Program-made: the position numbers and the translations under genes
Notes under the pieces: generated by a model
Told to the model about the DNA's origin: nothing
What the model saw: the letters and a program-made list of their open reading frames with translations, nothing else
Databases searched by the model: none
Part shown: one piece after another, positions 8,562 to 64,000 of the stretch
Layout: each line of letters starts with the position of its first letter
Position numbering within the stretch: the first letter of the stretch is position 1
Assembly (NCBI GenBank): GCA_003242895.1
Contig: QKMY01000059.1
Location: 1 to 64,000, forward strand
Source: Candidatus Margulisiibacteriota bacterium
Lineage (GTDB): Bacteria; Margulisbacteria; Riflemargulisbacteria; GWF2-39-127
Reading direction: 5' to 3'
Length of the DNA: 64,000 nt

Positions 8562-8577
8562 AGGTGTCTCCGTTTTA

Positions 8578-9963: not shown

Positions 9964-9987
9964 ATTAAAAACTCCTTATCCAAACTG

Positions 9988-10765: not shown

Positions 10766-10802
10766 TTTTTTGTCCTTTCTGTTTTGCTTTTTACTATTCT
10801 AC

Positions 10803-11011: not shown

Positions 11012-11353
11012 TCAAAATTTTGTTTGTGACATATTCGCTCTTAAATGTTCGGTCATTATCCTTGATAACCCTATTCCTCCGCGGTTTGCCATCATTTCTG
11101 CGTATTTTTGGTCACGCATTTCTTCGAATATCTTTTCGCCATCATTTTTGCTGAATAAGCCACCTTGCGGTATGGTTTTTTTCATTTCCTTAAACATATA
11201 ATTAATAAAATACGCTTCGAATTCTTTTGTTGCTTTTTCGGTTTTTGCAAGATCATTCGATTTCGTATCAGACGAATTGGAAACGGACTTTTTGTATCTT
11301 TGCTCATCGTAAGAATTTGATATCATGAGTGAGTTTGTATTGGTTAAATCCAT
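11012..11353 (-). CDS. flgJ: FlgJ-type rod-binding protein without muramidase domain
   Basis: This is the rod-binding half of FlgJ, which helps the flagellar rod assemble through the periplasm. The block KEFEAYFINYMFKEMKKTIPQGG and the C-terminal GGIGLSRIMTEHL are typical of the family. The protein has only 113 residues and lacks the C-terminal peptidoglycan hydrolase of E. coli FlgJ, as in many bacteria. A separate hydrolase must then open the wall; none is adjacent. The N-terminal 45 residues are polar and variable. It is the last gene of the flgF-led unit, 55 bases downstream of flgI. Confidence 0.85.
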   Translation of the reverse strand: MDLTNTNSLMISNSYDEQRYKKSVSNSSDTKSNDLAKTEKATKEFEAYFINYMFKEMKKTIPQGGLFSKNDGEKIFEEMRDQKYAEMMANRGGIGLSRIMTEHLRANMSQTKF

Positions 11354-11408
11354 AGTTTTTTTTCTTTATATTTACTTTAGGAATGCACCAACGTGCTTCC
11401 ATTATGGC

Positions 11409-12536: not shown

Positions 12537-12548
12537 TTATTTCTTTCT

Positions 12549-13148: not shown

Positions 13149-13174
13149 TTGATTTATACCTTTTTTAATCCTAG

Positions 13175-13906: not shown

Positions 13907-13910
13907 TTAC

Positions 13911-14699: not shown

Positions 14700-14714
14700 A
14701 ACATATCCCTTTCT

Positions 14715-15458
14715 TTATACCTTAGCTATCTCATTCACTGTTTTTCCCATGGCTTGATCAATTATTGTTACGACTTTTTGATTGGCTTCAAAGCTTCGTT
14801 GGACATTAATCATATTAACCATCTCAACCATGACGCTTGCATGTGTGATATTCGATGACTCCAGGTATCCCTGGCTGACTCTGGGATAGCTGACCTGAAA
14901 AGCTTGATTTGAATCTTGTGGATAAAACATGGATGCGCCTGCACGGGTCATTTGATATGGCTTAGGAAAATCGGTTACCACCAAAGAATCTATTTGTTTT
15001 CCATCACCGAATACGTAACCTTTTTCATTCACTACTAGTTTTTCTGCGGTCCCTACGTTAATGGTGCCATTCTCTCCCATAACGTAATAGCCGTTTTGGG
15101 TTACAAGATAACCTTCGGAGTTAACTGAGAAGCTTCCGTTTCTCGTATAGGCTAAACCATTGGGTGTCTGGATGGTGAAGAATCCGTCATTGTTAATGCT
15201 CATATTCAGATCGCTACCGGTAAATACTTGAGCTCCATCGGTAAAATCTGTTTTGATTTCATTAACGTAAGCTCCGGCTTTTTCTTGATTCGGAGAGTTT
15301 TGTATTGACTGATTCTGTCCGTTTGTGAAGCTTTTTGTGACTGCGATAGCCTTTTTGAAGCCTGGCGTGTCCATATTGGCAGTATTGTTAGATAATATTT
15401 CTAATCTAACAAGGTCATTTTGCATGCCGGAAGACGCTGCATAAATACCATTGAGCAT
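14715..15458 (-). CDS. flgF: flagellar proximal rod protein, FlgF type
   Basis: This is a second rod protein paralogous to FlgG. MLNGIYAASSGMQNDLVRLEILSNNTANMDTPGFKK carries the Asn/Thr-rich rod block in diverged form, and the C-terminal half GYLESSNITHASVMVEMVNMINVQRSFEANQKVVTIIDQAMGKTVNEI is conserved. The open frame extends to a GTG at 15467, but the AGGTGA ribosome binding site fits the ATG at 15458, giving 247 residues. Assignment as flgF rather than a FlgG duplicate rests on divergence and on its position first in the unit. A sigma-28-type promoter lies about 120 bases upstream. Confidence 0.88.
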   Translation of the reverse strand: MLNGIYAASSGMQNDLVRLEILSNNTANMDTPGFKKAIAVTKSFTNGQNQSIQNSPNQEKAGAYVNEIKTDFTDGAQVFTGSDLNMSINNDGFFTIQTPNGLAYTRNGSFSVNSEGYLVTQNGYYVMGENGTINVGTAEKLVVNEKGYVFGDGKQIDSLVVTDFPKPYQMTRAGASMFYPQDSNQAFQVSYPRVSQGYLESSNITHASVMVEMVNMINVQRSFEANQKVVTIIDQAMGKTVNEIAKV

Positions 15459-15577
15459 GATGGTCACCTATTTATTTCTTGTATATGCGTTTTGGGGAAA
15501 ACTGAGATAGTCGATCTCAGCTATTAGAGCGTCCGACAAGCGGTCCAGCTACATACACTGATCCCCAATTGCACTTA

Positions 15578-47694: not shown

Positions 47695-47940
47695 CTATAT
47701 TATAAGTTCCTAAATATCTTATACAGGCCAGGCTCTGTAAAATATTTCTTTTAACTTCTATATAATAAGGCCTTTCTTTCAGTGTCTTGAATCCATTATA
47801 ATTACGGTTGTTAACTTCCCAATTTTCTTGTCTTACTCATGTTCTTCTCAAAACGAAATATTTCCATACAAGTTGCTTTTTATTTTATACGATTAAGAAA
47901 TAAGAGAAGTATAAGTTGAGCTAATTGAGGAGGGATTTGT

Positions 47941-48255
47941 ATGTTTCTAGAACCGCATAATTTAGATGAAGGGCGATCTGCTGAAGTCTATCCTCCCGGG
48001 GGATTCTCAAAAGAAGAGAGAACTGATGAATTAATGCAGTTTGTAGAGTCTTTCGAAGGTATATATTTGTATGCAGGGAAAGATTTTAATGTGCAAGTTT
48101 ATTACACTGTCATGCAGGCACTTAAAATCGAAGGCTTATTGCCTGAAAGAAGTAATCAAGCTGCGGATTTGATAAAAAAAGTAACGGATATGATTGTTAA
48201 TGATCAAGAGATGAGTGAATCTGCAAAGCTGGTTATTCAACGATTTGGAAAATAA
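47941..48255 (+). CDS. small protein of unknown function, first of the giant-gene locus
   Basis: I do not recognise this 104-residue product. It is mildly acidic, mostly helical after residue 25, with no signal peptide or membrane helix. The N terminus has a Pro-Gly stretch (VYPPGGFS), and the C-terminal half reads as two or three helices (ADLIKKVTDMIVNDQEMSESAKLVIQRF). A very strong GAGGAGGG ribosome binding site precedes the ATG. It heads a run of four small genes upstream of the 4319-codon gene, all in the same direction. Confidence 0.75.
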   Translation: MFLEPHNLDEGRSAEVYPPGGFSKEERTDELMQFVESFEGIYLYAGKDFNVQVYYTVMQALKIEGLLPERSNQAADLIKKVTDMIVNDQEMSESAKLVIQRFGK

Positions 48256-48307
48256 TGTGTTTAATAGTTGCAATTATATGGAATATTAATTATAGAAGGT
48301 GTTAAGG

Positions 48308-48613
48308 ATGGAGATTTTCGGTTTAGAAATTGCAAAAACTGTTCCAAAGGATAATAAGATAAAAACGACGGTCAACGCCGGCGATAAAGATGATTTTCTT
48401 TGTGAGTTCGGTAAATGTTTTAGAACTGTTAATTCTGCTGAAGTCCAGAAAACGTATATGGCAGACAGGTCTTGGTGGAAGAAGAATCAGTGTGATGTAA
48501 AAATACTTAATTTGCGAGATGAAGATGATGGTAGTTTAACTTCCCTTTATAAAGAATATCGGAAAGTATTGTTGAAATTGTATAGGATTAAGCAGGTACT
48601 GGAAGAAGGGTGA
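48308..48613 (+). CDS. small protein of unknown function
   Basis: A 101-residue product that I do not recognise. It is soluble, with charged patches, three Cys (in the FLCEFGKCFRTV region and QCDVKI) and a C-terminal amphipathic helix (SLYKEYRKVLLKLYRIKQVLEEG). ATG 48308 is chosen because AAGGTG stands seven bases before it; the frame is open from a GTG at 48299. It ends seven bases before the next gene, so the two are probably translated together. Confidence 0.75.
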   Translation: MEIFGLEIAKTVPKDNKIKTTVNAGDKDDFLCEFGKCFRTVNSAEVQKTYMADRSWWKKNQCDVKILNLRDEDDGSLTSLYKEYRKVLLKLYRIKQVLEEG

Positions 48614-48619
48614 TGTTAC

Positions 48620-48820
48620 ATGAGCCTTATTAATGTAAATAATGTACTATCAGGGTTAAGTCATTTTGGTATTGATTCAGATTTGGTGAGCCAGAATTTG
48701 GAAAGAGAAGTCACGGGTGAGACATTAAGAGCACTGGAAGATTATGTGATAGATGATATAGAAACAAAAGTTGATAGATCAGCAGTAATCTTGGATGAGA
48801 CATATCCCGGGAGTAATTGA
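48620..48820 (+). CDS. very small acidic protein of unknown function
   Basis: A 66-residue acidic protein with no known relatives that I recognise. It is predicted to be helical (NVNNVLSGLSHFGIDSDLVSQNLEREVTGETLRALEDYVIDDIETKV) and ends in a polar tail. A GAAGGG sequence lies about ten bases before the ATG. The next gene begins one base after its stop codon. Size and helical character resemble secreted subunits or chaperones of many systems, but nothing assigns it. Confidence 0.7.
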   Translation: MSLINVNNVLSGLSHFGIDSDLVSQNLEREVTGETLRALEDYVIDDIETKVDRSAVILDETYPGSN

Positions 48821-48821
48821 A

Positions 48822-49022
48822 ATGCAAACTGATAACAGTTGTTTACGGGCTATAAATGACATGGTGCAGCTTGTTGAGAATAAAGCTAGTGAAATATTTC
48901 CTGCACGCGACATGAATAATCAATTAACAACCGACATTAATTTTCAGCCGAAAAATAATAACGTAATTGGCGAATCAATAAATAATTATCTTGGTAATGG
49001 AAAATATAATACACTGGTTTAA
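48822..49022 (+). CDS. very small Asn-rich protein of unknown function
   Basis: A 66-residue product. ATG 48822 is chosen with GGGAG eight bases upstream; the open frame extends to 48795. The first half is helical (CLRAINDMVQLVENKASEIF); the second half is rich in Asn and polar (DINFQPKNNNVIGESINNYLGNGKYNTLV) and likely flexible. No homology is recognised. It is the last of the four small genes; a large inverted repeat lies downstream. Confidence 0.68.
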   Translation: MQTDNSCLRAINDMVQLVENKASEIFPARDMNNQLTTDINFQPKNNNVIGESINNYLGNGKYNTLV

Positions 49023-49348: not shown

Positions 49349-52300
49349 ATGACTTCGATACAGCCGTCTCAAGAAAAAAATAAAGCTGATAATCCTCAGG
49401 ATGACATTAATCTTGCTGCACAAGCTCAATCGGCAATGTACGCTCAAGCTGAAATCCAAGCCGAAGACGATCTTGGCGGTTCAGAGAGGCATATCGATGG
49501 CGCTGTAATCAGTAGCAGCGGTTCTGATTTTTCGAAAGATAGGAAAGAAAAGGGAACGGTCATCGAGTCAGAGTCAGGGAGCTATATTTTAAATCAAGGG
49601 ACAAATGAGCCGGGGATGACGGTTCTTGATTATCGTGATGCAGTATCTATAGGACAGGCACTTCCCTTGATTTTTTCGGATTCGGTTATAACTGTATACG
49701 AAGTGGAAGATCCCCAACAGTATATCGACCCTGCTGATCCCAAAGTTCAACAATTGCTTGAGGAGTTCATAAATCAGAAGATTATTACTGAAAACATGGA
49801 TAGCAAGCAAATAATAAGTCGAGTGGCAAAATATTTAGCAGATAATTTCAAAATAATTACGGATTCAACGAATCCATATTTGACCAAGGTAGGGAAAATT
49901 ATTGATTCAAGGACTGGAACCCCTGATGAACTCAATGTCCTTTTTGCTTCGCTTTCTAAGCGGGCATTGGTTTCCCTGGGTAAAAACGAAACTATTATAG
50001 ATAGCGTTCGTTGCATAGGAGGCGAGGATCGACATGGAGTTAAAAAGTTTTTTGCCCAATTTATAGATGAGCAGGGCCGAAAACTCCTTGTTGATTTTAA
50101 TAGCAAACCAGTAGTCCAAGACATGCCATCAGATTATATCGATAAAATAGATTTTATTATGAATAGTGGCGAATTCACTGTTCTTGACCCGTGTTATTCG
50201 ATTGATAGGGCTGATATGTATCAAAGTAATTTTTTTAATCAGTTATATAGACAGAACGTTGCTAAGCTTGAAAAGGGGGCACAGTATCTAAAGGATTCGG
50301 CGAGTTCACATGAAATCATTCAACTGCTGGGAAAAGTTTTTAATCTGCCCGAGGGTTTAAGCGATTCGGAAATTGCTGAAAGAATAAATAAATTGGGACT
50401 TAGCGATGTGGAAATCGCACAAAAGATCAATAATTTTGTAAATAATAATATTACCTATAAAGATGAAGGTATCGATTCCTGGGAATCTCCTAAAAACCTG
50501 GCACAGAGCCTTCTTGCTGGCAAAACCCCACAGGGGGATTGCGAAGAATATGCGATGCTTAAGGCTTCCCTTATGCAGGCGGCAGGGCTTAAGGATGTTA
50601 ATGTTGCTATCGTGAGGAACGGTACACATGCTAATGCTGTTTTCCAAACGAGTGAAGGCAAAGCTTATGTGCTTGAGATGAGCGAAGCGAATTCGAAGCT
50701 GGTTGATATGACCTGTGAAGAGTACCTTTCTGAAGAACATTGCGTCGGATATTTTAATGATCAAACAATTGTCCTTAATAAAGCCAATACAATTATTTCG
50801 ACAGCTACTAACACAACTGTACCCGGGACAGGAACTGATGGTACTGTAACCCCTGGTAGCGGAAGTGACGTGGATGTATCTGCTAATCTGAATAAGTCTA
50901 TGGATAGCTTATCTTCGTATTTGGATCGAGTTGATGGGATAGGGATTGATTCGAATGTGTCTGAAGATTTTAAGAGTATCATGGATAACTTTACCAAAGA
51001 AACAGGGATGCAGGTGCAGATTGACCAAAAAACTCTAGAAGATATCGCAAAGAATAAAAATTTAGGAAATATACCTACCAGTGAGCTTAAAAAAGCACTC
51101 GACTCAATGAAAAGTTTTTATTCTACTTTCAATTCGAAAGAGGGTAAAGCCTTAGCGAAAGAAGTTGCCGGTAAAATAAATAGCAGTGATATTGCGAAGG
51201 ATTTGCTTGAAGCAGTCCAAAATAATCCGGAGCTGAAGGATGTTTTTAATCAAAAAGATATCGATGAATTAACGTCGATATCTAAAAATGGCGGAGATTT
51301 CCTTAATAGTGAAGCGGGGAGAAAAGTAGCAAATATACTGGCTAAAGGCGGTCCCGGTGTCGCTGCGTTGGCTGGCAAGGCAAGAGCTGCCGCTGATGCG
51401 GTTATAACTCCAGAGGTTGTGAAGGCATTCAGAGGCATATTCAGTAAATATGCAACTGGGGGGAGAAGTTTTCAGTCTGTTAATGTCGGGCACCATAAAT
51501 CAATAACTGAACTGAGAACAAGAGAGGATTGGGTCTATGATAATAATCTGGATTTTTCTGGCTGCCATGATTTGTTTGATGCCCATAATTGTGTAATAAA
51601 TGCAATAAGTGATAAGCTTAGCCGGTTTGATATTAAAGCATTTGTTTATGAGGACGTTATACAGACGCCAATGGGGCTCATAAAAATTAAACGGTTTGAT
51701 GATGAGAAACGTGATAAGTTCCTTAAATATTTAGCGAACCTTAAAATGCTGCTAGAGATAATCGCAATGCTCCAAGAAGCGCAGGATAATATTTCGCGTT
51801 TGCGGGATGAGACTTTTTCTGGAATTAGAACAAAAAAAGAGGACAAACCTGGAAAGAATCTGGCAGCTCCGGATATGGAAAAAGCTACTGATTTTTTTGA
51901 ACTTGTAAAAAAAGCTCTTGATAGCACATTTCGTGAAGCTAATTCATTTAACCAAGCCCAGATGCAAGAAGTTATGGCTAAGATCGGTGAAGGGGATACC
52001 AGCTTCGAAGCCCAGATGAGAGGCATGATTACCGGAGTTGATGATGTTTCTGCATGTCTGAAAGCAAAAGACATAACTTTCCGTCAATTCTCAACATTGA
52101 ACGCCCAGCAGTTAAAAGATTATAAGAACGATATTTTAAGCGATAGTATTTCTGATGTGAAAGAAAATCTCAAAGAAATCAATCGGAGTGGCGGCGATTC
52201 AAAGCAGTTAATGGATTTAATCTCAAATAAAGTGAAGTCTTTTGACGCAAAGCAGGACGAGATAGTCAACGAGTTTTGCAAAACTGATTTTTATAAAGAA

Positions 52301-55300
52301 ACTCCTAATGGTTATTTGGACTTGGATTATGCAAGGATTTATGAACTAAAGGATAAAATTAGGGAACTTCAAGATATTCAACGGCTTTTGATAATGGTGC
52401 AGGAAGCCATTATAAACATCCAAAATATGTATTCAAATACTATGTCAGGTGTAGAGCTAGATGCCGTTGATATCAGTGGGGTCTCTAGGGCTGCCTTTGA
52501 GAAAGGCAATTTAAAGCTTGGCAAAATAATGCAGATGGAAATGTACCTTAAACAAATTGTTAACTTGCATAATTCTGCTAATAAAATAAGGAAGGCAGCT
52601 GAAAAAATTGATGCAGCTCAGGAAGGAAAATTTAAGGCGTTCATTTCTTCTTATATCGCTGCTAATAGCTATACTTCCGATGACGAAAAAGCTCGGCAAG
52701 CGGCTACAGTTTTTTCTTTAGCTTCAGCGTCTTATACACACAGTGCGGCGGAGGCTGCTTATTCTATCAACGAGACTTACGATGTTTCAACTGTATTTGA
52801 TGAAAAAAGAATTATGGCACAAATTTCGAAAATAGCCACGCAGATGGAACAGCCGATGGAAAAAGAAGAAGAAGAGGAAGCTTCCGGGTTAAACAGGATT
52901 AAATCTTTAGAGAAAAAGCAGTATGCAATTTTGAATCAAATTGATTCACAGTCATTTGTAATGAAAGATGGAAATGGCTATGTTGTGGACTCTATGAAAC
53001 TGGGAAAATTAAATAAACAGCTTGATAATATCCAGCAACGGATGCGTTTAATAATGGAGTTAATGCTGGTTATAAACAATTTGCAGAATAACTACGTATC
53101 GACAATGACAGGTGTCTATGGTGGCTCAACAACCGGATATTCAATGATGAGCAGTCTGCTGGAGTCTAAAATAAGTCAAGTAAATGCACTTTTTTCTTTA
53201 TTAACTTCAGAACTAAAGGAAATTGCTGAGAAAAAAACCATGGTACATCTCAGGCAGAAAGAGATGTCTGATGCACAACGTGTTTTTGCTACGGGGATAA
53301 CAACATCATTAATCGCTATTTCAAATCCTGTCTATGGGTCTATTTTTGGGTTCATGGCTAATGCGATGAATACTATGAGAGCTTACAGCGATGCTTTATC
53401 CGGTGGAATGCATAGTACCGTTAAGTTTTCAAACGCGAATGAAGAAGAAAAAGCACGAATTGAAGCTGAGAAGGCATCCAATTCAATTGATCAAGAAGAA
53501 GACAAACTGCTCGATAGTGTTTATTCTACGGGGATTATTCCGGCTGGCGATGGGAAGTTTGCCGTGAATTATGATTACCTGGCGAAAGTAGCTGATAAAA
53601 TTGCGCAACTGCAAGTCAGGCGCATGATAGTTGCAATGCTGCGGATGTTTATTATGAATATGCAAAATTTGAAAAACCAGACACTTGGGGGGCCGGTGCT
53701 ATATACTCCAAGTACCTCAATGATGGTGAGGGCACACGGCTCTACTACTACGAAGGTGATGAACCTTATTGTTCAGCAGTTACAAGATGAGGTTACGGTG
53801 AAAAATGCGAAGGTAAGTGCCGGCAGACAAGTTGAGATTGCTAAAAAGAAGCTTTCGACCTCAATGAGCTTTGGGCTGGCAGGGTTAGCAACCTCGGGAA
53901 CTACGGGCTTTTTTCTCGGAACAATGGTTGGGGACCTCGTTTTTTCTCTGGGGAACGTTGCTCAGGCTGCGTCTCATACGGGGATGGATTTCGGTCAATT
54001 AAATGGTGCTGCTACGAAAAGGGAGCAAGAAAAAGAAGAAGAAATTCGTATCGAGAAAGAAAGCGTCGAGAAAAAGGGAGAAGTCCGGCAAGCTGATAGC
54101 AGGGCCGAGGCAAAGAAAATTGATAGAGTATTGTCCTCCTTCTCGTCAAGGGAATCGTCAATTCTTTCGGGAATCAATTCGGATCTGATTGTCGATATAG
54201 GCCATGGAAGATGGGGCGTAAGTGGGGAAAACCTTCAAACAGTCATGTATAAGTTAAGCCAGATAGCACAAGCCAGGACCATGCTTTTTAAAATATTAGA
54301 AAAAATGATGAAGATTTCTGAACAGAAGAATAAGAATCTCACTGGATTTGATTTGAGAGGGATTTCCCTTGAATCAGCTGATGAGATACTCAATGAAGCA
54401 AGCCAGCAGGCAGCTTATTATCTTTATGAAAAACTCGATGCCATATGTACTCGACAACATGAAATTTTAGCAGCAAGGCAGCAGTATTCGCAGGCAATGA
54501 TGAATTTCTTTATCAAAATATCTCAAACAGTTATAAGTAGTCTCCTGGCGACAAAGAGTGAAGAACGAGAGGCAAAGGCAGCGGATAAGAAATCGGAAGA
54601 AGAACTGAAATTAACTGAGCAACTTATAAAATTAAAGCTTTTAGAAAAATTTACTGCTTATTTTGCAGAGCAACAGGCAAAAGCAGGAGAAAAGCCTAAA
54701 TATAAACCTCTGGAGAATGCGATTCCAATTAAAGCTAAGTCTAGCAGTTCCGCTGGAAAAAATATTTATTCAAAATTGTATGACATTATTGAATCGTTAG
54801 AGGTTGAACTGTATATGGACGAAATTCGCAAGAGCCGTGCTGAAACGAAAATAAAGATCGATCAGATCAAAAGAGAAGTGGCACTTAAGTTGCAAACGGC
54901 ACTCTGGGAGACTGTAACGGATTTCGGGCTATTAAAAGATGTCTACGAATTGAACAAAGATAGAAAGGCTTCTAGTGAAACAGTTCCTGGAGAGTCCGCC
55001 AGTAAATCGGATGCCGGTACAAGTGTTCCTAGCGGAGTAAATGGTCAAACCGGATCAACTGCTGCTAAGCCGGATTCCGCACAGACTGATAAGCCAGCCG
55101 GGGAAGCTGGTCCTGTTATTGCTCCTGCAGCTACAGGTTCTTCTGGAAATGCTACTGTTCCATCTTCTGCTACCTCGGCAAGGAGCCGTTCGGAGGCTAT
55201 CTGGTATGGGATGAAAATCAACGCAGAAGGTCAGGGTTTGCTAAAGAGCCGGAATGATAATCTAAAACAGATTCTTACGGCTCTCATTTCGGCCTCAGAG

Positions 55301-58300
55301 AGAATGTACCAAATGCTTGTTGTCCAGGCGGTACAACGATTGACCGGTATGGAAATGTTTAGTGGACAGTTCTCTCCTGATAAGGTTCTGGATGCCGTAG
55401 ATCATGCGCATTATATTGATGAAAGAGAAAAAGATCATCCGGCGGGTGATATTAAAAGTCTATATGATACTATGTTTGATAATACCTATGGTGAACAGAA
55501 GCAGTCATTCAAATCTGAAACTGATGCCGTGGGTTTCGTATCCAGTATTCTTAAGTCGACACAGGACGGATTATCTACTGATAAAGAAAAAATAGATTAT
55601 TTCAAGAAATGTCTTAATGGCGATCTTGAAGTAAATAAACAGAAGCTTGATAGTGCGTCAAAAGCTTTGCTGATTAAGGCACTCGAACATGTATTAACCG
55701 ACAAAGGAGCTCCTTATTCACCTGGACAGCGTAGTCTTGCTTCCCAGATGTTAGCAGCTATGGGGCAGAGCCATTCAGATAGCAATGTTGCATCGCAAGC
55801 AAGTGCCGCCATAGAAAAGAATAAAACAGCGATAACTGAAAATATTCAAGATTATAAGCAGGCTGTTAGTATGATAGATAATCTGACGAAAGATGAGAAG
55901 TCTAAAGCTGAACATGCTGAGCTTATTAAAGATCTCCAAAAGAAGGTTCAAAATGATAGTAAATTTCAGGCGCTAACTGGTGAAGAAAAGTCAAATATGC
56001 TAGCAAATCTTATTACAAAAAACAATGTTATCGACAAAACTACATTTGTAACCTCTGGGAAAATAGATGAAGCGAAGTCGAATGAAATCTGGACTTATAT
56101 GAAAGTTAATAGTCTTCTAGATGAAAATAATAGATGGAAGGAAGATGCAGATCCTACTAAGTTGAAAGAAAAATATAAAGCAGAATGGAATAGTATCGTT
56201 AATGCCTTGGAAGTTAATCCTTCATTGTTAGCAGTCTACATTCGCCCAATGGCAGATGGAACGATGCTAGTGAGTTCTGAGATCGTTGCTCAAGCCCTCG
56301 ATAAGGCATCTTTGAAAACCGATGTGGTTAACTTCGCTGCCGCCATTAAGGTTATCCAAGAAACTAATCCAGCTATTGCGGATTCAGTTATTTCCGCGAT
56401 GAAAAACACCGAGAACCAAAAATACGCCAAGCAACTTGCGATTACAAATAAGACAATGAAGCAAGCACTTGCCGGAGAAGCGGTTACGCGGCCAAAAGAG
56501 ACTGAAAGTGAGCTTGCTAAAAAGGTCACTGATTTAGAGAATAATATTACTGATATTAATAATAAAATACAGGAATTAGATGCTAAAATTAATGAATTAA
56601 ATACTAAAATACAGGACCCGAATAATAAAGACAAAACAACCTTACAAAAAGAATTAACGCCAATGCAGGATGAGCAGAATAAGAAAAAAGAAGAATTAAA
56701 TAAAAAGAAAATCGAGCTATTGTCGCTAAAGCAACTTCAACTTCAGGCATGTGCCGCAGATATTTCTGATCTTAAAAATGGTAAACAGTTAACCGCTGAT
56801 AGTATGTCCCTGATCAAACAGAATAGAGGTTTTGTAGTGGAAATGCTTGTTGCTCAAGGGATTACTGTCGAACAAGCTGCCGCTTTTATCCAGCAATTAT
56901 TTGCCGTGTCACCGGACGAAGCACTGCCCTTGCTCGCAGACCTAATTAACTCTGACCCCAAAAAAGGAATGGATATTTCTTTACAGCTTAATAAATCATC
57001 TGCTTTTTTTGATAATCTCCTTACTGATTTTCAATCAAAGCCGACTGCATATCAGGAGAATGTTAAAGCCCTCGTGAATTCTTTTTTTATAGCTTTGCCA
57101 AAGAATGATATGTCGGAGCCGACACTTAAATCGATGGCTGATTCACTTGTTTCGAAAATAGAATCGCAACCTGTCCCTCCTGTAGATATCGAGACATTAG
57201 TTGACTTTATGGTTGCTAATAAGTCTATTGACTCAAAAATTCTTGCGAAAATGTTGATTAATGCTGATCCTGAGGTTGCAAGTAAAGTGTGGTTGTCTTT
57301 GACTGAACAAGCAAATCCAATAGCCTACAGTACCGACAACCTGCCCAGTTTAGGAAATGAGGATATCTACAATCTGCAGGTGCAGGTCAAGGAAGCTTTA
57401 ACACAATTAAGTAAAGAATCTTCTATGAATGCAGAACGAGCCCAGGATATTTTTTCCAGGACAGCATGTTTGCTTGAACAAGATATTAAGAAAAAAGAAA
57501 TAGCTTATATAGACAACTTTAAGAAAAATTATAAGAAAGAGCATAATAAAGATTACGAAGGAGCTGTTAGATTTACTCCTCGATTAGTGGAAGATGGGAT
57601 GGCAATAGTAAAGAGTTTGACTGCGGACGCTGCTTTGATAAAAAAAGAAGTAAATAAGCATAAAGAAATTATCGAGAGATTTAAGACTAAAAGCGTTGAT
57701 GAAATTTTAGCGGAGAAGAGTTTAACGGAAGCGCAAAAAGCTGATGTGATACGGCAGCAGTTGGTTGATACTCCGAAGGATACCGTTTTAGCTTTGAATA
57801 AAGCCGCAGAATCCGGGGACAAAGGCGTCCAGATAGCGCATGTAGTGATGGAAATAAATAATCATGATCCGGCCATTATTGCCAATATTGCAATTATTGC
57901 AAAGAAAGAAAATATCGATATAAACAGTACGATAAAATCTCTCAATTCTGCAATGCTTGAGAAGGATTTTAAGGCTACAGATATGAGTTCTCTGATTGAA
58001 GCCCGTTCATTGCTGGAATCAATTAAGAGCGGGAATGTAACTCAATTAACGAACTATATTTCTTCAATTGTGGCAGAAAAACCGACTATGGCGGCAGCTA
58101 TTTTGGCAGAATTCTATAAGAGTGATGCGCAAGCAGCAAAGCAGGTAGCAATTAAAGTTGTAATAAACAATAAACATATCTTACAAGATACTTCAAATGG
58201 ATTTATGAAAGAGTTGATGAACTTGTCTCCTGAATTGGCAGGAAAAGTTGTTAACGAAATTCAGTTACTTGATGAGAACCTCGCTAAAATGATTTGTAAA

Positions 58301-61300
58301 AACGTTATAGATATGGATAAGGAAAAGTTCAGTATATTTGTGGCTCAGTTCAAAGAGAATATACCTCTTATGGATATGGTAAATTTGATTGTCGCAAGCT
58401 CGAAGAAACAAGAATTAATAGATCAATTAAAGCAAATTGCTCCGGAAGTAATCGATCCCAAAGCCTTAGCAGCGCAAGTTATGAACGCAGCTAATGAGGC
58501 GGATAAGCTTGAATTATTGAGCAATGCAATATCTTCAATAAAGAACCCGAATGACCAAGCACAGTTTCTTAAAACTATGTACAAACTTGAGGCGGGAATG
58601 GATAAACTTATTGCTCAATGGATTGAAGCTCAGGTGGCAACTGGTGAAAATAATCAATCACTTGCTGATATTACGAGTAGGATTCTTATGTCAGATCAAT
58701 CGCTTTTTACTAACTTAATGAAAATTTTAAATGATGATAAAAAATTGGGAGATTTTGTTGCTGCTGTTAAAAAGTCATCTCCAGACAAAGAGAATCGTAT
58801 TAATACTCTTAATGCTGCACTTAGTATTATTAATGAAAAATTAGAGCCCAAAGGCTTTTTTGCAGGTGTTTGGGATAGTATCCTGGAGTTTTTGGGTGAT
58901 ATTTGGAGTGGGCCGTACAAAGAAGAAATAGATTTGCTGTTGGAAAAAAGGGAGCAGGGTTTGAATAACGTTGCTGCAGTAATAACCACCTTAAAATGTG
59001 CGGAAGAAATTGTGCAAAAAAGTGATGCATCAAAAGAAAAATTTTCTGACACTAAAAAGCTGGTAAAAGAAGCTGTTACAAGTATGGTTAAGCAGGGGCT
59101 GCATTCCGAGGCGGCAGATCTTATCACGAAACTATTTTCAGATAAACCGGCTGATATGGAGGAAATGAAGAACGATATTTTTGACAAGCTTACTGTAGAC
59201 ATTTCCGATGAAGGTGATTATGTTAAGAAGATGAACCTCATTGCCGCACAGGTGTTACTCTGCCCGAAGGATAAATCTATGCAGGTCGAGATATTGAAAG
59301 ACATAAGGTTGCCTGATTCCGATGAAATATACGACTATATGAATTATCTTAATGCTCTACTTATGTCATCTAATTCTGAGATTGTTTCGGTAGGAAGAGA
59401 AAAGTTTTCAGCTTTTATATTGAATAATGATTATCAATCCCAGCATCAAGATATCCAGAAACGCCTTGAAACCTTAGCCGGGGATAATGCTATGCCTTTA
59501 GAAGTAAGGAATGATTCAAAAATATTTCTCAGATCGCTTCAGCTAAAAGATGTTGTCTCGCAGGGAGAAATAGCCAAACTTGTTAAGGCGGCTAATATTG
59601 ACCAGAAAGCTCCGGTAATAGAGCAAATGAACGGTATCTTCGCCTATGCAAAGAACAACCTTACCCTTTTACCGGAATCAAAAGGGGAAGATAAATCTCT
59701 TTCTTTAGTTGATATTTCTAATGCTATTCTCTCCGGTAAAAAACCGGAATGTGATTGTGAGGACTTCTCTGGAATGGTACAGGCAATGATGGAATCTGCC
59801 GGGATCAAGGTTACTGAAAGCGCGGTTGTGGTTACCCGTGACGGTTCCCACTCGGCGGTAGTGGTCAGGGCAGGAGAGAAAGCATACGTATTGGATAATA
59901 CGTCCGACAAAATAGTTGATGACCCAAAAGAGATCACTTCTTTGCTTGGGCAATCGGTTGAGGTTAACAAGAACCTTGATCAGCAGAATTTTCGGGCTGT
60001 TTACAATGGGAAATCAATTAGGATAAGTGAGACGAATACCACTGAAATACTGACTGGAACAGTTGTTGATGAGAAAGAAACCTCTTCTACGGTAACTACA
60101 GTCCAAACAAAAGAAGCTGATAGCAACAATCCTAGTCAGAGTGCGCCTGCTGTTTCTCTTGAGTCAAAGGTAAATGAAAAGGCCGAATCTCTCATTAAAC
60201 TATGTAGTGATAAGAAAAACATAGCAAAAGCCTCCCAAGAACTCGAAGGTTTTATCGAGAACCAGGACCCGGCATTTGCGTATGAAGTCCTTGATCAGAT
60301 TCTTAGCAAAGATACCTATCTGTCTGCTTATATAGCTGCGCTTATGAACCCAGAAAATGTACAGAAGTTAATTGCAGTAGCTGGCGACATGACAATCAGT
60401 CAGGGCGCAACAAGGAGCCTTAATAGTTCGGAGACCATGGAGTTAGGATTGTTACTGGAGGTAATAAGAGACAAACAAGATACTACGCAAGTATTAAAGA
60501 CTAACGGCGTTGATCAGGCTATTGCAGACGAGCATGTTAACAGGATTGTGAATGAAATGACTCTTATAAAAAACACACAATCTGAGCATATCAAAGCCGG
60601 CTCAGGATTAGAAAAAGCAATTAAAGAACTGATTAAAATTAATTCTAACCGAGACCAGCAGGAGGTCCTTCCCTCATGTGCAAGAATTATTAAAACCGAG
60701 ATTCTTCCGGCAATTAGTATATTACTGCCCCGGCTAAAAGATTTACCCGGGGGTAAAAAATTAGATAATATTTTTGAACTGGCAATAGCCGCGCAGATGC
60801 TTTGTGATAAGAAGATTTCCCCGGACCAGAAGTCGGCGTCTACTGCTACCTTGCTTGAATTCGCTGAATCTTTGGCCGAAATAATGCCTGATCTAACTTT
60901 GCAAGAAGACGCAGCAAAATTATCCGGGATTCTTTCGTTAGAAAAAAATGTTGTGAATACAGTTCTGGCGTTAGCCATTTCGCTTATTGGAGAGGACTCT
61001 TTTCCTGCCGTCGGAAAAGATTTAATATCGTTAGCAAAATCGGATAAATCTTCCCAAGTTATCGCGAAAAGCCTTACTCATTGCGATACTAAGGGAGTAA
61101 CAAAACTGCTTATTGCGCTGGGAAGCGAAGATGTAAAAACAGCAAGCCGGATATTTGCTGAGATTTCTTTGACGAAAGGCGGCGGACTGAAGTCCGCAGG
61201 CGATATTGCACAAGATATGAGAGAGTTACTCAATGATCCTGAGACTACATCAGAAACAAAAAAGATTATTTCAACCATGTTTTCGGAAACAAATAGTATT

Positions 61301-62308
61301 AATCCTGATTTTAACCCGAATAAATATATTAATGAAAGTGGTGTTGTGATCGAGCAGAAAATAATCCCGATAACTGAAACTGTTGCTGATAACGAAGTTC
61401 CTGTTTCGCAGTATTCAGATAATATTAAACAGAGTTCTCCGGAGGAGAAAAAAGATTCCGCTGAAATCGCATCAATAATATCCGAAGGCAACTTGAAAAG
61501 GGAAGATATCAAAGCATTACTTAGCCGAGGCTTTTTTACTGCAAAAGAGTTATTGTCAGTAATTAATCTCTTTGCCAATGAGGTAGGTAAAACAGAGGAA
61601 TTGCTAGTTACGCTCAATGTCGCGATGGAATGTTTGGACCCTGAGGTTATTTACCAGATATGGTCAGCTCTTAGCGAAGATAATGTGAAATCGTTAGAAA
61701 CGCTTATTAATAATAGTTCCTATGCTAATAGGGCTGGTGTAACCACTGAATCTTATACAATAGTGTGTGCTCAGATTGTCGGGGATTTGCTAAAACAAAA
61801 CAATAAAGAATTGCAAAGGGAATCAATGCTTCAAAAAATTCAAGCAGCTAAGGATTTGTTCAGTATTGTTTCTGGTGTTTCAACTGCCAGTATCGAGGCT
61901 TTTTCGGGGGAATCCCTGAATTTTGTTCAGCAACAAAAAGAAAAAGATAAAAAAGAAATGGTTGCGATGTTGGGGAGGTTGTTGAAGCGGGTGGCAACTG
62001 CGAGTTTTGAAGCACAGGAGAAACAAGATGTTATGCGCGTAATCAATTCCATTGGCACTGTTCTTGTAATGTCATCCAATGATCATAAAGAAGCAGTTTC
62101 GCTGTTGCTTGTAAATGATCCGAAGAGAAAAGATGCTATAATACAGGTAATAGATACTATATTAGGAAAATATCAGCTTTCAGCAGAACTCAAGGATATT
62201 ATAAGTATAGTTTTAAACAGCAATGAAAAAGAAATAGCATTTATCTGCGGAGCTCTAAAGATTAATAAAAGCCTGCAAAATGTTATACAATATAAAAATG
62301 CTGCCTAA
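49349..62308 (+). CDS. giant multidomain protein (4319 residues) with three transglutaminase/LapG-like folds
   Basis: I recognise no known protein as a whole. No signal peptide or lipobox is present; the first 130 residues are polar and acidic. Modules in order: transglutaminase-like fold 1 (about 150-262), fold 2 (345-465), Thr/Gly linker (485-515), helical region, five tandem repeats of about 210 residues (765-1770), Ser/Thr/Pro/Ala linker (1870-1950), helical regions with a coiled coil at 2386-2470, long HEAT-like helical arrays (about 2500-3420), fold 3 (3425-3545), a Thr/Ser linker, and a final helical region to 4319. The start ATG has AAGGG 13 bases away. Codon usage looks like that of neighbouring genes. 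The role is unknown; a cysteine peptidase or protein cross-linker is plausible because of folds 2 and 3. Confidence 0.9.
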   Translation: MTSIQPSQEKNKADNPQDDINLAAQAQSAMYAQAEIQAEDDLGGSERHIDGAVISSSGSDFSKDRKEKGTVIESESGSYILNQGTNEPGMTVLDYRDAVSIGQALPLIFSDSVITVYEVEDPQQYIDPADPKVQQLLEEFINQKIITENMDSKQIISRVAKYLADNFKIITDSTNPYLTKVGKIIDSRTGTPDELNVLFASLSKRALVSLGKNETIIDSVRCIGGEDRHGVKKFFAQFIDEQGRKLLVDFNSKPVVQDMPSDYIDKIDFIMNSGEFTVLDPCYSIDRADMYQSNFFNQLYRQNVAKLEKGAQYLKDSASSHEIIQLLGKVFNLPEGLSDSEIAERINKLGLSDVEIAQKINNFVNNNITYKDEGIDSWESPKNLAQSLLAGKTPQGDCEEYAMLKASLMQAAGLKDVNVAIVRNGTHANAVFQTSEGKAYVLEMSEANSKLVDMTCEEYLSEEHCVGYFNDQTIVLNKANTIISTATNTTVPGTGTDGTVTPGSGSDVDVSANLNKSMDSLSSYLDRVDGIGIDSNVSEDFKSIMDNFTKETGMQVQIDQKTLEDIAKNKNLGNIPTSELKKALDSMKSFYSTFNSKEGKALAKEVAGKINSSDIAKDLLEAVQNNPELKDVFNQKDIDELTSISKNGGDFLNSEAGRKVANILAKGGPGVAALAGKARAAADAVITPEVVKAFRGIFSKYATGGRSFQSVNVGHHKSITELRTREDWVYDNNLDFSGCHDLFDAHNCVINAISDKLSRFDIKAFVYEDVIQTPMGLIKIKRFDDEKRDKFLKYLANLKMLLEIIAMLQEAQDNISRLRDETFSGIRTKKEDKPGKNLAAPDMEKATDFFELVKKALDSTFREANSFNQAQMQEVMAKIGEGDTSFEAQMRGMITGVDDVSACLKAKDITFRQFSTLNAQQLKDYKNDILSDSISDVKENLKEINRSGGDSKQLMDLISNKVKSFDAKQDEIVNEFCKTDFYKETPNGYLDLDYARIYELKDKIRELQDIQRLLIMVQEAIINIQNMYSNTMSGVELDAVDISGVSRAAFEKGNLKLGKIMQMEMYLKQIVNLHNSANKIRKAAEKIDAAQEGKFKAFISSYIAANSYTSDDEKARQAATVFSLASASYTHSAAEAAYSINETYDVSTVFDEKRIMAQISKIATQMEQPMEKEEEEEASGLNRIKSLEKKQYAILNQIDSQSFVMKDGNGYVVDSMKLGKLNKQLDNIQQRMRLIMELMLVINNLQNNYVSTMTGVYGGSTTGYSMMSSLLESKISQVNALFSLLTSELKEIAEKKTMVHLRQKEMSDAQRVFATGITTSLIAISNPVYGSIFGFMANAMNTMRAYSDALSGGMHSTVKFSNANEEEKARIEAEKASNSIDQEEDKLLDSVYSTGIIPAGDGKFAVNYDYLAKVADKIAQLQVRRMIVAMLRMFIMNMQNLKNQTLGGPVLYTPSTSMMVRAHGSTTTKVMNLIVQQLQDEVTVKNAKVSAGRQVEIAKKKLSTSMSFGLAGLATSGTTGFFLGTMVGDLVFSLGNVAQAASHTGMDFGQLNGAATKREQEKEEEIRIEKESVEKKGEVRQADSRAEAKKIDRVLSSFSSRESSILSGINSDLIVDIGHGRWGVSGENLQTVMYKLSQIAQARTMLFKILEKMMKISEQKNKNLTGFDLRGISLESADEILNEASQQAAYYLYEKLDAICTRQHEILAARQQYSQAMMNFFIKISQTVISSLLATKSEEREAKAADKKSEEELKLTEQLIKLKLLEKFTAYFAEQQAKAGEKPKYKPLENAIPIKAKSSSSAGKNIYSKLYDIIESLEVELYMDEIRKSRAETKIKIDQIKREVALKLQTALWETVTDFGLLKDVYELNKDRKASSETVPGESASKSDAGTSVPSGVNGQTGSTAAKPDSAQTDKPAGEAGPVIAPAATGSSGNATVPSSATSARSRSEAIWYGMKINAEGQGLLKSRNDNLKQILTALISASERMYQMLVVQAVQRLTGMEMFSGQFSPDKVLDAVDHAHYIDEREKDHPAGDIKSLYDTMFDNTYGEQKQSFKSETDAVGFVSSILKSTQDGLSTDKEKIDYFKKCLNGDLEVNKQKLDSASKALLIKALEHVLTDKGAPYSPGQRSLASQMLAAMGQSHSDSNVASQASAAIEKNKTAITENIQDYKQAVSMIDNLTKDEKSKAEHAELIKDLQKKVQNDSKFQALTGEEKSNMLANLITKNNVIDKTTFVTSGKIDEAKSNEIWTYMKVNSLLDENNRWKEDADPTKLKEKYKAEWNSIVNALEVNPSLLAVYIRPMADGTMLVSSEIVAQALDKASLKTDVVNFAAAIKVIQETNPAIADSVISAMKNTENQKYAKQLAITNKTMKQALAGEAVTRPKETESELAKKVTDLENNITDINNKIQELDAKINELNTKIQDPNNKDKTTLQKELTPMQDEQNKKKEELNKKKIELLSLKQLQLQACAADISDLKNGKQLTADSMSLIKQNRGFVVEMLVAQGITVEQAAAFIQQLFAVSPDEALPLLADLINSDPKKGMDISLQLNKSSAFFDNLLTDFQSKPTAYQENVKALVNSFFIALPKNDMSEPTLKSMADSLVSKIESQPVPPVDIETLVDFMVANKSIDSKILAKMLINADPEVASKVWLSLTEQANPIAYSTDNLPSLGNEDIYNLQVQVKEALTQLSKESSMNAERAQDIFSRTACLLEQDIKKKEIAYIDNFKKNYKKEHNKDYEGAVRFTPRLVEDGMAIVKSLTADAALIKKEVNKHKEIIERFKTKSVDEILAEKSLTEAQKADVIRQQLVDTPKDTVLALNKAAESGDKGVQIAHVVMEINNHDPAIIANIAIIAKKENIDINSTIKSLNSAMLEKDFKATDMSSLIEARSLLESIKSGNVTQLTNYISSIVAEKPTMAAAILAEFYKSDAQAAKQVAIKVVINNKHILQDTSNGFMKELMNLSPELAGKVVNEIQLLDENLAKMICKNVIDMDKEKFSIFVAQFKENIPLMDMVNLIVASSKKQELIDQLKQIAPEVIDPKALAAQVMNAANEADKLELLSNAISSIKNPNDQAQFLKTMYKLEAGMDKLIAQWIEAQVATGENNQSLADITSRILMSDQSLFTNLMKILNDDKKLGDFVAAVKKSSPDKENRINTLNAALSIINEKLEPKGFFAGVWDSILEFLGDIWSGPYKEEIDLLLEKREQGLNNVAAVITTLKCAEEIVQKSDASKEKFSDTKKLVKEAVTSMVKQGLHSEAADLITKLFSDKPADMEEMKNDIFDKLTVDISDEGDYVKKMNLIAAQVLLCPKDKSMQVEILKDIRLPDSDEIYDYMNYLNALLMSSNSEIVSVGREKFSAFILNNDYQSQHQDIQKRLETLAGDNAMPLEVRNDSKIFLRSLQLKDVVSQGEIAKLVKAANIDQKAPVIEQMNGIFAYAKNNLTLLPESKGEDKSLSLVDISNAILSGKKPECDCEDFSGMVQAMMESAGIKVTESAVVVTRDGSHSAVVVRAGEKAYVLDNTSDKIVDDPKEITSLLGQSVEVNKNLDQQNFRAVYNGKSIRISETNTTEILTGTVVDEKETSSTVTTVQTKEADSNNPSQSAPAVSLESKVNEKAESLIKLCSDKKNIAKASQELEGFIENQDPAFAYEVLDQILSKDTYLSAYIAALMNPENVQKLIAVAGDMTISQGATRSLNSSETMELGLLLEVIRDKQDTTQVLKTNGVDQAIADEHVNRIVNEMTLIKNTQSEHIKAGSGLEKAIKELIKINSNRDQQEVLPSCARIIKTEILPAISILLPRLKDLPGGKKLDNIFELAIAAQMLCDKKISPDQKSASTATLLEFAESLAEIMPDLTLQEDAAKLSGILSLEKNVVNTVLALAISLIGEDSFPAVGKDLISLAKSDKSSQVIAKSLTHCDTKGVTKLLIALGSEDVKTASRIFAEISLTKGGGLKSAGDIAQDMRELLNDPETTSETKKIISTMFSETNSINPDFNPNKYINESGVVIEQKIIPITETVADNEVPVSQYSDNIKQSSPEEKKDSAEIASIISEGNLKREDIKALLSRGFFTAKELLSVINLFANEVGKTEELLVTLNVAMECLDPEVIYQIWSALSEDNVKSLETLINNSSYANRAGVTTESYTIVCAQIVGDLLKQNNKELQRESMLQKIQAAKDLFSIVSGVSTASIEAFSGESLNFVQQQKEKDKKEMVAMLGRLLKRVATASFEAQEKQDVMRVINSIGTVLVMSSNDHKEAVSLLLVNDPKRKDAIIQVIDTILGKYQLSAELKDIISIVLNSNEKEIAFICGALKINKSLQNVIQYKNAA
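49796..50134 (+). other. transglutaminase-like fold 1, degenerate (Pro-His-Asp)
   Basis: Within the giant protein, residues about 150-262. RVAKYLADNFKIITD corresponds to the helix before the active site, and RTGTPDELNVLFASL aligns with QGDCEEYAMLKASL of fold 2. Pro192 stands at the nucleophile position. His229 (DRHGVKKFFAQF) and Asp249 (LLVDFNS) keep the other two positions. The fold is inferred by alignment to the two clearer copies. It should be catalytically dead. Confidence 0.6.
50381..50743 (+). other. transglutaminase/LapG-like fold 2 (Cys-His-Glu)
   Basis: Residues about 345-465. INNFVNNNITYKDE precedes the nucleophile block PQGDCEEYAML with Cys398. His427 lies in NGTHANAVF and the third position is Glu443 in YVLEMSE, where LapG-like enzymes have Asp. 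The order and the strand-flanked spacing match bacterial transglutaminase-like cysteine peptidases. Confidence 0.8.
51641..54658 (+). repeat. five tandem protein repeats of about 210 residues
   Basis: Units around residues 765, 975, 1194, 1385 and 1606 share a pattern: an SxLIV-D/xGxGxxxV segment, an Ile/Leu-rich helix (IxxxRxMIxxMLxxIxNMQN), then N-x-T-[LM]-[TSG]-G. The closing Gly residues are 825, 1034, 1255, 1447 and 1666, 192-221 residues apart. Units 3 and 4 contain hydrophobic Gly-rich segments (about 1311-1340 and 1505-1540) at the same offset from this Gly. I know of no family with this pattern. Confidence 0.75.
56504..56758 (+). other. coiled-coil segment of the giant protein
   Basis: Residues about 2386-2470 show heptad-like Leu/Ile spacing with alternating charge (ELAKKVTDLENNITDINNK and similar), interrupted by a short Asn-Lys break, then a second Lys/Glu-rich helix (EEQNKKKEELNKKKIELLSLK). 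This is a good coiled-coil candidate and could join copies into oligomers. Confidence 0.7.
59621..59983 (+). other. transglutaminase/LapG-like fold 3 (Cys-His-Asp, apparently intact)
   Basis: Residues about 3425-3545. MNGIFAYAKNNLTL precedes PECDCEDFSGMVQAMM with Cys3470; Cys3468 lies two residues before it. His3501 (DGSHSAVVV) and Asp3516 (YVLDNTS) complete a triad in LapG/transglutaminase order and spacing. The YVLDN block is a strong match to the family. It is the best candidate for an active site in the giant protein. Confidence 0.85.
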
Positions 62309-62335
62309 AAATAGTTGATAAAGGCAGGTGCCGAA

Positions 62336-63427
62336 ATGGGTAATGCAGTGGATAATGAATATAAAACAAAGATTCTGGAGCTCACCGATAACCTAACGGT
62401 TTTTTTAACAGAAAATAATATTGATTCGATAAAAAATACCACCACCGTAATTGCGTCTTATAAGCAAAGTATAGATTTTCTAAAAAAGATAGATAACAAT
62501 TCAATTATCGAAGAAGATTTGAAAAATATCTTAGTTGTTCTTGGCAAGCTTGATACCTTTATTCCTGATTTCAAAGATAAGCGTATCAGCCCTCTCGTTC
62601 GTTCGGTTGCTTTGCAAACATTCAGAAACAGCTACGGCGAACTTTTATCGTTTATGCAAGAATCAAATATAGACGCGGTAGTGAGTGAATTATTTGTCTT
62701 TCTTGATAAAGAGCTGTCAGTTCTTGGCTCGACTAGAAAAGAACTGGAGGACAAAGCTTCTAAGTGTTACCATTATCTTACAACACAGAATCAGAAGGTA
62801 TTTATTGTCTTTATTAAGAAATTAGCTGGTAATATTTCGCATTTTTTAAAAGAAATTAAAAATACTGATGATGTTTCGAGGACTATTGTAATTGCTCTAT
62901 TGATGGACAAATTGTCATTGTCAGATACTTGGGGAATTGCTTCAGACGTCGAAGCAGTTAATAAGTTTATCGCACGAGGAATTCTCGGCTTATTTAAACA
63001 GATGAGTAAAGAAATGCCTTTAGCGGGTATGTTAAAAAATGTTAAAATAATTAATAGTCAGTTACCATCGGAAATATTGAAATACGTTGAAGGGGCCCTT
63101 CCTGATAAGATAAAGCGGGCACTTAAGTTTGAAGAATTACTGGTTTTTGTTCCTGCTATGGAGGAGCAAATAGCTTCTTTAAGCATGAATGGAATTATTA
63201 TTAGACGGGTGGCAGTGGGAGATCGCCCTCAAGATGAAGTGCGGCGGTTGCTTTTACAGATAAAACAAGAACGATTGTCTAAAAGTGAAGTAATTTCAAT
63301 TCTTCGTTCAAAGACAAAAGAGGTTGTTTTATTGTTTTTAGGATTTCTCGACAATCGTGACCGAGAGCTTATTGCTTCAGTTCTGTTTGAAAATCGTAGT
63401 AACGCGCAGATAATTACTCGAAAATAA
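62336..63427 (+). CDS. helical protein of unknown function downstream of the giant gene
   Basis: A 363-residue soluble, predominantly helical protein that I do not recognise. Its style resembles the helical C-terminal parts of the giant protein, with repeated Leu/Ile-rich helices (IVIALLMDKLSLSDTWGIASDVEAVNKF, GILGLFKQMSKEMPLAGMLKNVKI). ATG 62336 with AGGT seven bases away is preferred; a TTG at 62315 is open. It begins 27 bases after the giant gene, so it is very likely in the same transcript. It could be a dedicated partner or chaperone; this is inference. Confidence 0.75.
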   Translation: MGNAVDNEYKTKILELTDNLTVFLTENNIDSIKNTTTVIASYKQSIDFLKKIDNNSIIEEDLKNILVVLGKLDTFIPDFKDKRISPLVRSVALQTFRNSYGELLSFMQESNIDAVVSELFVFLDKELSVLGSTRKELEDKASKCYHYLTTQNQKVFIVFIKKLAGNISHFLKEIKNTDDVSRTIVIALLMDKLSLSDTWGIASDVEAVNKFIARGILGLFKQMSKEMPLAGMLKNVKIINSQLPSEILKYVEGALPDKIKRALKFEELLVFVPAMEEQIASLSMNGIIIRRVAVGDRPQDEVRRLLLQIKQERLSKSEVISILRSKTKEVVLLFLGFLDNRDRELIASVLFENRSNAQIITRK

Positions 63428-63454
63428 CGAAGAGTGTCTAGGAGGTATCTAATT

Positions 63455-63670
63455 TTGGGAATTATTAAGTTGTTTTGCCCTTTTGAGTCACTATTGTTAA
63501 ACATTCTGTTTTTTTTATTTGTCTGTTATATTTTATATTCAATTGGAAAAAGTCTTTATGTGATAGTCACAAATTATAAAAAAGTCAAACAATACAACCA
63601 GGAAATAGATGCGATTGAAAAAAAAATTGTTGAAACCAAAAAAAAATTAAAGGATGCGATGAATAGCTAA
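63455..63670 (+). CDS. small one-TM coiled-coil protein (FtsB/DivIC-like topology)
   Basis: A 71-residue protein: short N terminus, one membrane helix (LLLNILFFLFVCYILYSIG), then a Lys-rich coiled coil (YKKVKQYNQEIDAIEKKIVETKKKLKDAM). The TTG start at 63455 is chosen because AGGAGG (63440-63445) lies nine bases away; a GTG at 63434 would give 78 residues but has the ribosome binding site inside the gene. The topology resembles septum proteins FtsB/DivIC/FtsL, but no sequence signature supports that. It is 27 bases after the previous gene. Confidence 0.65.
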   Translation: MGIIKLFCPFESLLLNILFFLFVCYILYSIGKSLYVIVTNYKKVKQYNQEIDAIEKKIVETKKKLKDAMNS

Positions 63671-63672
63671 TT

Positions 63673-64000
63673 ATGGGCAGGCTTGATCAAAATAATGATA
63701 TCGAAGACTTTGTTGTTAACCCTATTGAGCTTCCGGAGCAGAATAAGCTTTTGCGGGATTTTTTTCCATTTATTGAGAAGGTGTTGAGTAGTCAGGATAA
63801 CTCTGTTTTGCATGAGCAGAGTCCGAATCCGACTCAAAGGAAAGGCAGCATTGATTTAACTGAGGTGCTTATACATCAAGAAAAAAAGTTGAATATTAGC
63901 TACCTTATGGATTTTTTGGAAAAAAAACGCGTGGCAGTTCCCAGTTCCTTAATTGGCGAGGATAATAAGACAAGTCCAATAATTAAACAGGAAAGAAAAC
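63673..64000 (+). CDS. incomplete gene at the window edge, unknown function
   Basis: From ATG 63673, two bases after the preceding stop, a frame stays open to the end of the window (109 codons). The visible product is polar and acidic (RLDQNNDIEDFVVNPIELPE, then short helices such as LLRDFFPFIEKVL). I do not recognise it. The tight spacing shows that the giant-gene operon continues beyond the window. Confidence 0.6.
   Translation, partial: MGRLDQNNDIEDFVVNPIELPEQNKLLRDFFPFIEKVLSSQDNSVLHEQSPNPTQRKGSIDLTEVLIHQEKKLNISYLMDFLEKKRVAVPSSLIGEDNKTSPIIKQERK

Follow-up and report, generated by a model that had tools for sequence, protein, structure and literature searches.

The bacterial transglutaminase-like cysteine peptidases (BTLCP; PF06035, MEROPS C93) LapG and DvhG are the closest described counterparts of the domains reported here, with which they share the fold, the Cys-His-Asp order of the catalytic residues and the calcium-type residues Asp-Cys-Glu. 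In DvhG, D316 and E318 around the catalytic C317 are calcium ligands required for activity (PMC13090378). While LapG is a periplasmic protein of ~200 residues with a signal peptide and DvhG is membrane-anchored, the giant protein encoded in the window (the whole 64,000-nucleotide stretch of DNA that we analyzed) carries three copies of the domain, one of them dead, in a 4319-residue chain without a signal peptide. Unlike in the Lap system, we saw no LapD or c-di-GMP context and no LapA-type site in the chain. The Caulobacter capsule regulator HvyA belongs to the same BTLCP family and shows latitude in the third triad residue (it requires its C, H and D residues, yet the change D241N is functional), but it is a single-domain periplasmic protein with an unrelated role (PMC4241560). 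Giant ORFs encoding proteins with few known domains have been described from the uncultured phylum Omnitrophota, although the description mentions neither a transglutaminase-like domain nor any connection with type III or flagellar systems (PMC10066038).

The ORF at 49349-62308 ran uninterrupted through 4319 codons, with GC and GC3 normal for its surroundings. When the chain was searched against Pfam, the only families found at E-values up to 1 were PF01841 (Transglut_core) at residues 342-414 (41 bits) and PF06035 (Peptidase_C93/BTLCP) at residues 354-460 (37.1 bits over two stretches, cut-off 27). Both families matched the second domain (D2 below) and PF06035 also matched the third (D3). In the whole genome, PF06035 found the window giant only, at D2 and D3, with the D2 stretch alone scoring 26.0 bits, just under the cut-off, and PF01841 found D2 plus one other protein of 324 residues. 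No N-terminal hydrophobic segment of the kind expected for a signal peptide or membrane anchor was found, as judged by hydropathy rather than by a dedicated predictor. LapA-like self-cleavage was considered and rejected, the giant having no di-alanine motif; self-release of this kind is unlikely since the LapA-type cleavage site [TPA]AA[GVAS] is absent from the entire 4319-residue chain. The features of the giant are as follows.

49349..62308, + strand: giant protein gene, 4319 residues, without a signal peptide and without a strongly hydrophobic 19-residue segment
49703..50173, + strand: D1 (residues 119-275), transglutaminase-like, catalytically dead (P192/K233/D249), from HMM, alignments and model
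50282..50767, + strand: D2 (residues 312-473), transglutaminase-like/C93, C398-H427-E443, from PF01841, PF06035 and HMM
51554..52126, + strand: helical module r1 (residues 736-926), first in a five-module tandem array
52181..52750, + strand: helical module r2 (residues 945-1134), same tandem array (residues 736-1746)
52844..53410, + strand: helical module r3 (residues 1166-1354), same tandem array
53438..53989, + strand: helical module r4 (residues 1364-1547), same tandem array
54080..54586, + strand: helical module r5 (residues 1578-1746), last of the tandem array
59549..60016, + strand: D3 (residues 3401-3556), transglutaminase-like/C93, C3470-H3501-D3516, from likeness to D2, PF06035 and model

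The original prediction was that this one chain holds three transglutaminase-like folds, and three lines of evidence agree with it. To guard against circularity we left the window protein out of the family HMM and trained it solely on relatives from other genomes; this profile found D1 at residues 123-209 (51 bits, i-E 1e-13 at Z = 20,000), D2 at 343-452 (43 bits, i-E 3e-11) and D3 at 3416-3553 (16 bits, i-E 0.008). D3 was also 35% identical to D2 over 95 residues (E 8e-9), and chance is excluded as the source of the three-domain matches. The third line is structural, and the comparison with LapG that had been proposed came out as expected for both models. An AlphaFold model of D3 made on a 35-row family alignment (pLDDT 83.6, pTM 0.83) had LapG 4fgp as its best PDB match (E 4.4e-5, prob 1.00, TM about 0.55), and all six of its PDB matches at E-values up to 0.001 were LapG structures or LapG complexes. 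The model of D1 and D2 together, from an eight-row alignment, was only moderate (pLDDT 65.8, pTM 0.48); its top PDB matches were LapG as well (4u65 chain E, E 8.5e-4), the match not being assigned to D1 or D2. By sequence, the family profile matched Legionella LapG (4fgo) with an E-value of 6e-10. Since the superfamily covers several chemistries, and D2 matches PF01841 slightly better than PF06035 in bits, the domains might instead be transglutaminases or amidases that act on cell-wall peptides or cross-link proteins. We consider this improbable, as LapG proteases are the top matches by both structure and sequence and the calcium site follows the LapG pattern.

All nine residues that had been named for the three active sites lie at the positions given for them, and the three sites are indeed in different states. 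D3 has the full triad C3470, H3501 and D3516. In D1, two alignments placed Pro192 in the Cys column, Lys233 in the His column and Asp249 in the Asp column, so that the copy is dead as predicted, with both Cys and His lost and Asp249 alone kept. His229, which had been taken for the D1 histidine, lies four residues away from that column in both alignments. The D1 model agrees weakly: Pro192 sits at the N-terminal end of a helix where the nucleophile belongs, and His229 lies in a loop with pLDDT below 50, ahead of the strand expected to carry the His. For D2, the residues Cys398, His427 and Glu443 were correctly named, but its description as simply an altered site is not supported, as the Cys-His-Glu triad recurs in another giant (in genome G012) and has been reported for NAT3 of Bacillus cereus in connection with PDB entry 4dmo. 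Since HvyA D241N works, Glu recurs in the second giant and NAT3 has Cys-His-Glu, the third triad position appears tolerant, and by the same reasoning D2 probably remains enzymatically active. Both neighbors of the Cys, Asp and Glu, are kept in D2 (D397, E399) and in D3, and D1 has neither; in alignment A3, Asp-Cys-Glu is invariant in 35/35 rows, all of them live copies. By comparison with the calcium ligands of DvhG, the protease domain of these giants is probably calcium-dependent.

The window giant belongs to a family of giant proteins, not described until now, that is spread through a single uncultured phylum. The domain itself is of a known kind (LapG/BTLCP); what is new is the giant, signal-less, multi-copy architecture with dead and live domains. 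At E-values up to 1e-6 the domain was present in 37 of the phylum's 74 genomes (17/34 of the good genomes), mostly in ORFs of 2,000 to 7,430 residues and commonly within the first few hundred, and two copies per chain were often found. By hydropathy, none of the giants with an observed start carried a signal peptide. In an outside control of 36 named genomes from other phyla, the best match scored 38 bits and the ORFs reached 867 residues. The longest chains that we noted in other families are those of G017:C9 (7430 residues), G039:C1 (6673 residues) and G028:C61 (6265 residues). In four genomes of families f2 and f3 a YcaO-domain gene lies beside the giant (L023:1303-2817, L036:7307-8887, L170:17730-19313, L184:781-2349); YcaO enzymes modify peptides, and it is conceivable that the giant or a partner is modified by its neighbor.

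The combination of dead and live copies is not a one-off of the window giant, a point that the original prediction overlooked: tandem pairs recur in other giants of the phylum. Among 47 copies that we aligned, 38 had both Cys and His (the third residue being Asp in 35, Glu in 2 and Asn in 1), 8 were dead, and one was too incomplete to score. The dead states are P/K/D in D1, S/Q/D and N/E/D in the first copies of f2 giants, and S/Q/D in the second copies of f4 giants; in 8/8 dead copies Cys and His are lost, Asp is kept and a live copy stands in the same chain. On a tree of the copies the dead or live label needs three changes, two of them forced by well-supported branches, which puts the number of inactivations at two or three. 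In f2, the dead copies pair as sisters with live copies from their own genomes, and the f4 dead copies form a clade of their own. D1 joins the live N-terminal domains from its class, on a long branch and at a weakly supported position, while D2 and D3 fall together on a branch apart from it. Between genomes G013 and G023, the f4 dead copy has dN 0.070 and dS 0.817 (dN/dS about 0.09) and its live neighbor dN 0.045 and dS 0.725 (dN/dS about 0.06). Both copies are under purifying selection, a result that favors the idea, put forward originally, of a dead copy kept for a non-catalytic job.

After the N-terminal domain, the giants that we compared have long, largely helical regions, some of which are repeat modules; hydrophobic segments were inconsistent between them. 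In the window giant, residues 736-1746 hold a tandem array of five helical modules, each about 170-190 residues long. The module profile matched the giants of G004 (residues 2757-2885, E 1e-5) and G013 (residues 945-1064, E 2e-5); since the module borders were drawn by eye and the profile was trained on all five modules, only these matches in other giants count as evidence. We also considered the repeat region (residues 736-1766) as type III translocator-like and rejected this, as Pfam finds nothing there and the window protein lacks hydrophobic segments. Profiles made from the core regions of giants in the window's class and in f9, f10, f18 and f19 missed the window protein, even unfiltered.

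That the repeat profile is the sole tie of the window giant's middle to other giants, the rest being hardly alignable, could mean that mobile transglutaminase-like domains were inserted at random into an unrelated large protein and that the dead copy is mere decay, and the position of D2 and D3 on another tree branch than D1 would fit such a patchwork. We regard it as very improbable, since the N-terminal position of the domain is conserved in giants of many families, the f4 dead copies are under purifying selection, and giants of several related families are homologous over long stretches beyond the domain.

The phylum also has an unusual complement of export genes. FlhA (PF00771) was found in 66/74 genomes and FliF (PF01514) in 68/74, while flagellin (PF00669) was found only in the 8 genomes of the window's class, the same 8 that carry a second FliF; missing flagellin in these draft genomes means a missing match, in a pattern that is uniform over 66 genomes. 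On an FlhA tree the extra FlhA of the window's class joins the flagellar FlhA of other phyla, and the remaining FlhA form one fully supported clade across the phylum. Nearly the whole phylum thus appears to have a flagellar-type export apparatus without flagellin, with a true flagellum besides only in the window's class. In the window genome the second system lies at G000:C22:26862-37834 (L045) and encodes FlhA, FlhB, FliR, FliQ, FliP, FliO, FliN, a FliM-like protein, an FlgE/F/G-family protein and a FliK/YscP-like protein (FliR, FliQ and FliP being named from sequence and from homology to G013). The window itself has flagellar genes at 7317-15500 on the - strand (FlgL 7317-8561, FlgK 8578-9963, FlgI 11409-12536), along with matches of the rod/hook type, some 34 kb away from the giant.

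The genes around the window giant are listed here.

47929..48252, + strand: small ORF upstream of the giant, 108 residues with lead codons, no family
48296-48610, 48614-48817 and 48789-49019: small upstream ORFs
62315..63427, + strand: 370-residue gene, 6 bases downstream of the giant, no relative detected
63428..63667, + strand: 80-residue ORF with one hydrophobic segment and a coiled-coil-like tail
63667..64000, + strand: start of a 256-residue gene, followed beyond the window edge by genes of 108, 285, 72 and 865 residues (L039)

The 370-residue gene is probably co-transcribed with the giant. In profile comparisons, neither its product nor the small upstream and downstream ORFs matched the partner families of other giants, and we saw no core export gene closer than 10 kb to the window giant. 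The 285-, 72- and 865-residue genes, 3-8 kb downstream, are homologous to operons adjoining transglutaminase-like genes in G020, G028, G039 and G058 (the 72-residue gene in fewer of them), with an E-value of 1e-32 for the 285-residue gene against its linked-operon homologues. An identification of the 865-residue family as FliK was not supported. In f9, f10, f12 and f18 the transglutaminase-like gene adjoins such an operon, which encodes an FlgE/F/G-family protein (110 bits in G020 and 116 in the homologue from the window's own genome, cut-off 70) and conserved proteins of 284, ~100 and ~600 residues; the linked gene encodes a giant in f9, f10 and f18 and is ended by the contig end in f12. Elsewhere, the G013 giant is 6.5-10.5 kb from FliR, FliP, FliM-like and rod genes, a MotB-like gene is 3.8 kb from the G005 giant, a MotA/B pair is near the G004 giant, and FlhA in G001, G002 and G003 has the gene for a short transglutaminase-like protein (383-572 residues) about 1 kb away. 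Most of the transglutaminase-like loci examined had no export gene, and many of them end at contig ends. Co-distribution of the giants with FlhA subclades is phylogenetically confounded and provides no independent test.

These short forms near FlhA have no signal peptide and belong to true flagellar clusters (L026:10770-12485, L037:1587-2762, L038:9349-10497); we know of no LapG-like enzyme in flagellar assembly. Further neighbors were observed beside the giants. Two small conserved proteins of 93-97 and 103-121 residues open an operon beside giants (L174:7073-7875, L176:6901-7618, L182:6214-6833); they matched no family, and their size recalls type III needle or inner-rod subunits. Directly upstream of the giant in four families and five genomes is a conserved protein of ~185 residues (L176:7801-8355, L174:8130-8732, L179:282-827, L182:6934-7494, L030:19171-19734), which could be a dedicated chaperone for the giant.

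The absence of signal peptides, the flagellar-type neighbors in several lineages and the linked-operon homologues beside the window giant together speak for export of these proteins. The reading we prefer, to which we would give slightly less than an even chance, is of a type III-exported giant that combines a calcium-dependent protease with a binding pseudo-protease. The giant would leave the cell without a signal peptide through the phylum's flagellin-less, flagellar-type type III apparatus, or possibly, in the window's class, through the true flagellar apparatus instead. Outside the cytoplasm, calcium would activate those protease domains that are live (D2 and D3 in the window giant), which would cut a surface or partner protein. 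D1, placed on the tree among the class's live N-terminal domains, would have died and would keep its fold as a binding, docking or regulatory copy, while D2 and D3, from a different branch, would carry the chemistry. The folds, their dead and live states, the family, the repeated inactivation, the purifying selection on one lineage of dead copies and, in several families, the rod/hook-type neighbors are seen in the data; we infer the export route, the calcium dependence, the target and the binding role of D1 alike. Type III export is the best-supported mechanism but is not established: the linkage to operon genes may reflect shared regulation instead of export, and a type III channel would have to pass a substrate of extreme length, 4,319 residues. 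LifA/Efa1-type effectors, of about 3,000 residues and with a cysteine-protease motif, do pass a type III system; unlike the giants, they have another protease fold family and use a pathogen injectisome, and we claim no homology between the two.

The same absence of a signal peptide and of any strongly hydrophobic segment in the window giant would also suit a protein that never leaves the cell, a cytoplasmic, Sec-independent scaffold or regulator whose domains process or dock cytoplasmic partners, such as export-machine subunits that await assembly, and the 383-572-residue forms beside FlhA fit a helper in assembly no less than a substrate. We think this unlikely, though worth weighing, because the invariant calcium-type Asp-Cys-Glu (PMC13090378) suits a place outside the cytoplasm, where calcium is high, and because both the size of the giant and its repeat array fit a protein that is secreted or sits on the surface. 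A further reading is a LapA-kind surface adhesin or cell-cell contact protein with built-in LapG-like domains and another release route, its protease trimming the giant or its neighbors; the known substrates of LapG are giant adhesins (PMC13090378, PMC3032545), and giant ORFs in other candidate phyla have been proposed as adhesins (PMC10066038). Pfam, however, finds no adhesin, Ig-like or RTX repeats in the window giant, the LapA-type cleavage motif is absent, and no N-terminal signal or retention module was recognized, which makes an adhesin distinctly unlikely.

Giant genes of uncultured phyla are mostly functionally blank (PMC10066038). One such family now has a catalytic domain, a chemistry that can be tested, a distribution over the whole phylum and a plausible route of secretion. 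The phylum's flagellin-less FlhA/FliF apparatus bears on the reuse of type III systems in the absence of a filament, and two to three inactivations, each with Cys and His lost, Asp kept and a live copy in the same chain, offer a natural experiment on how pseudo-proteases originate and what they are retained for. Taken for the whole phylum, it is possible, if rather doubtful at present, that these bacteria deploy giants with LapG-like proteases via a flagellin-less machine and that their domains repeatedly became pseudo-proteases retained beside a live copy.
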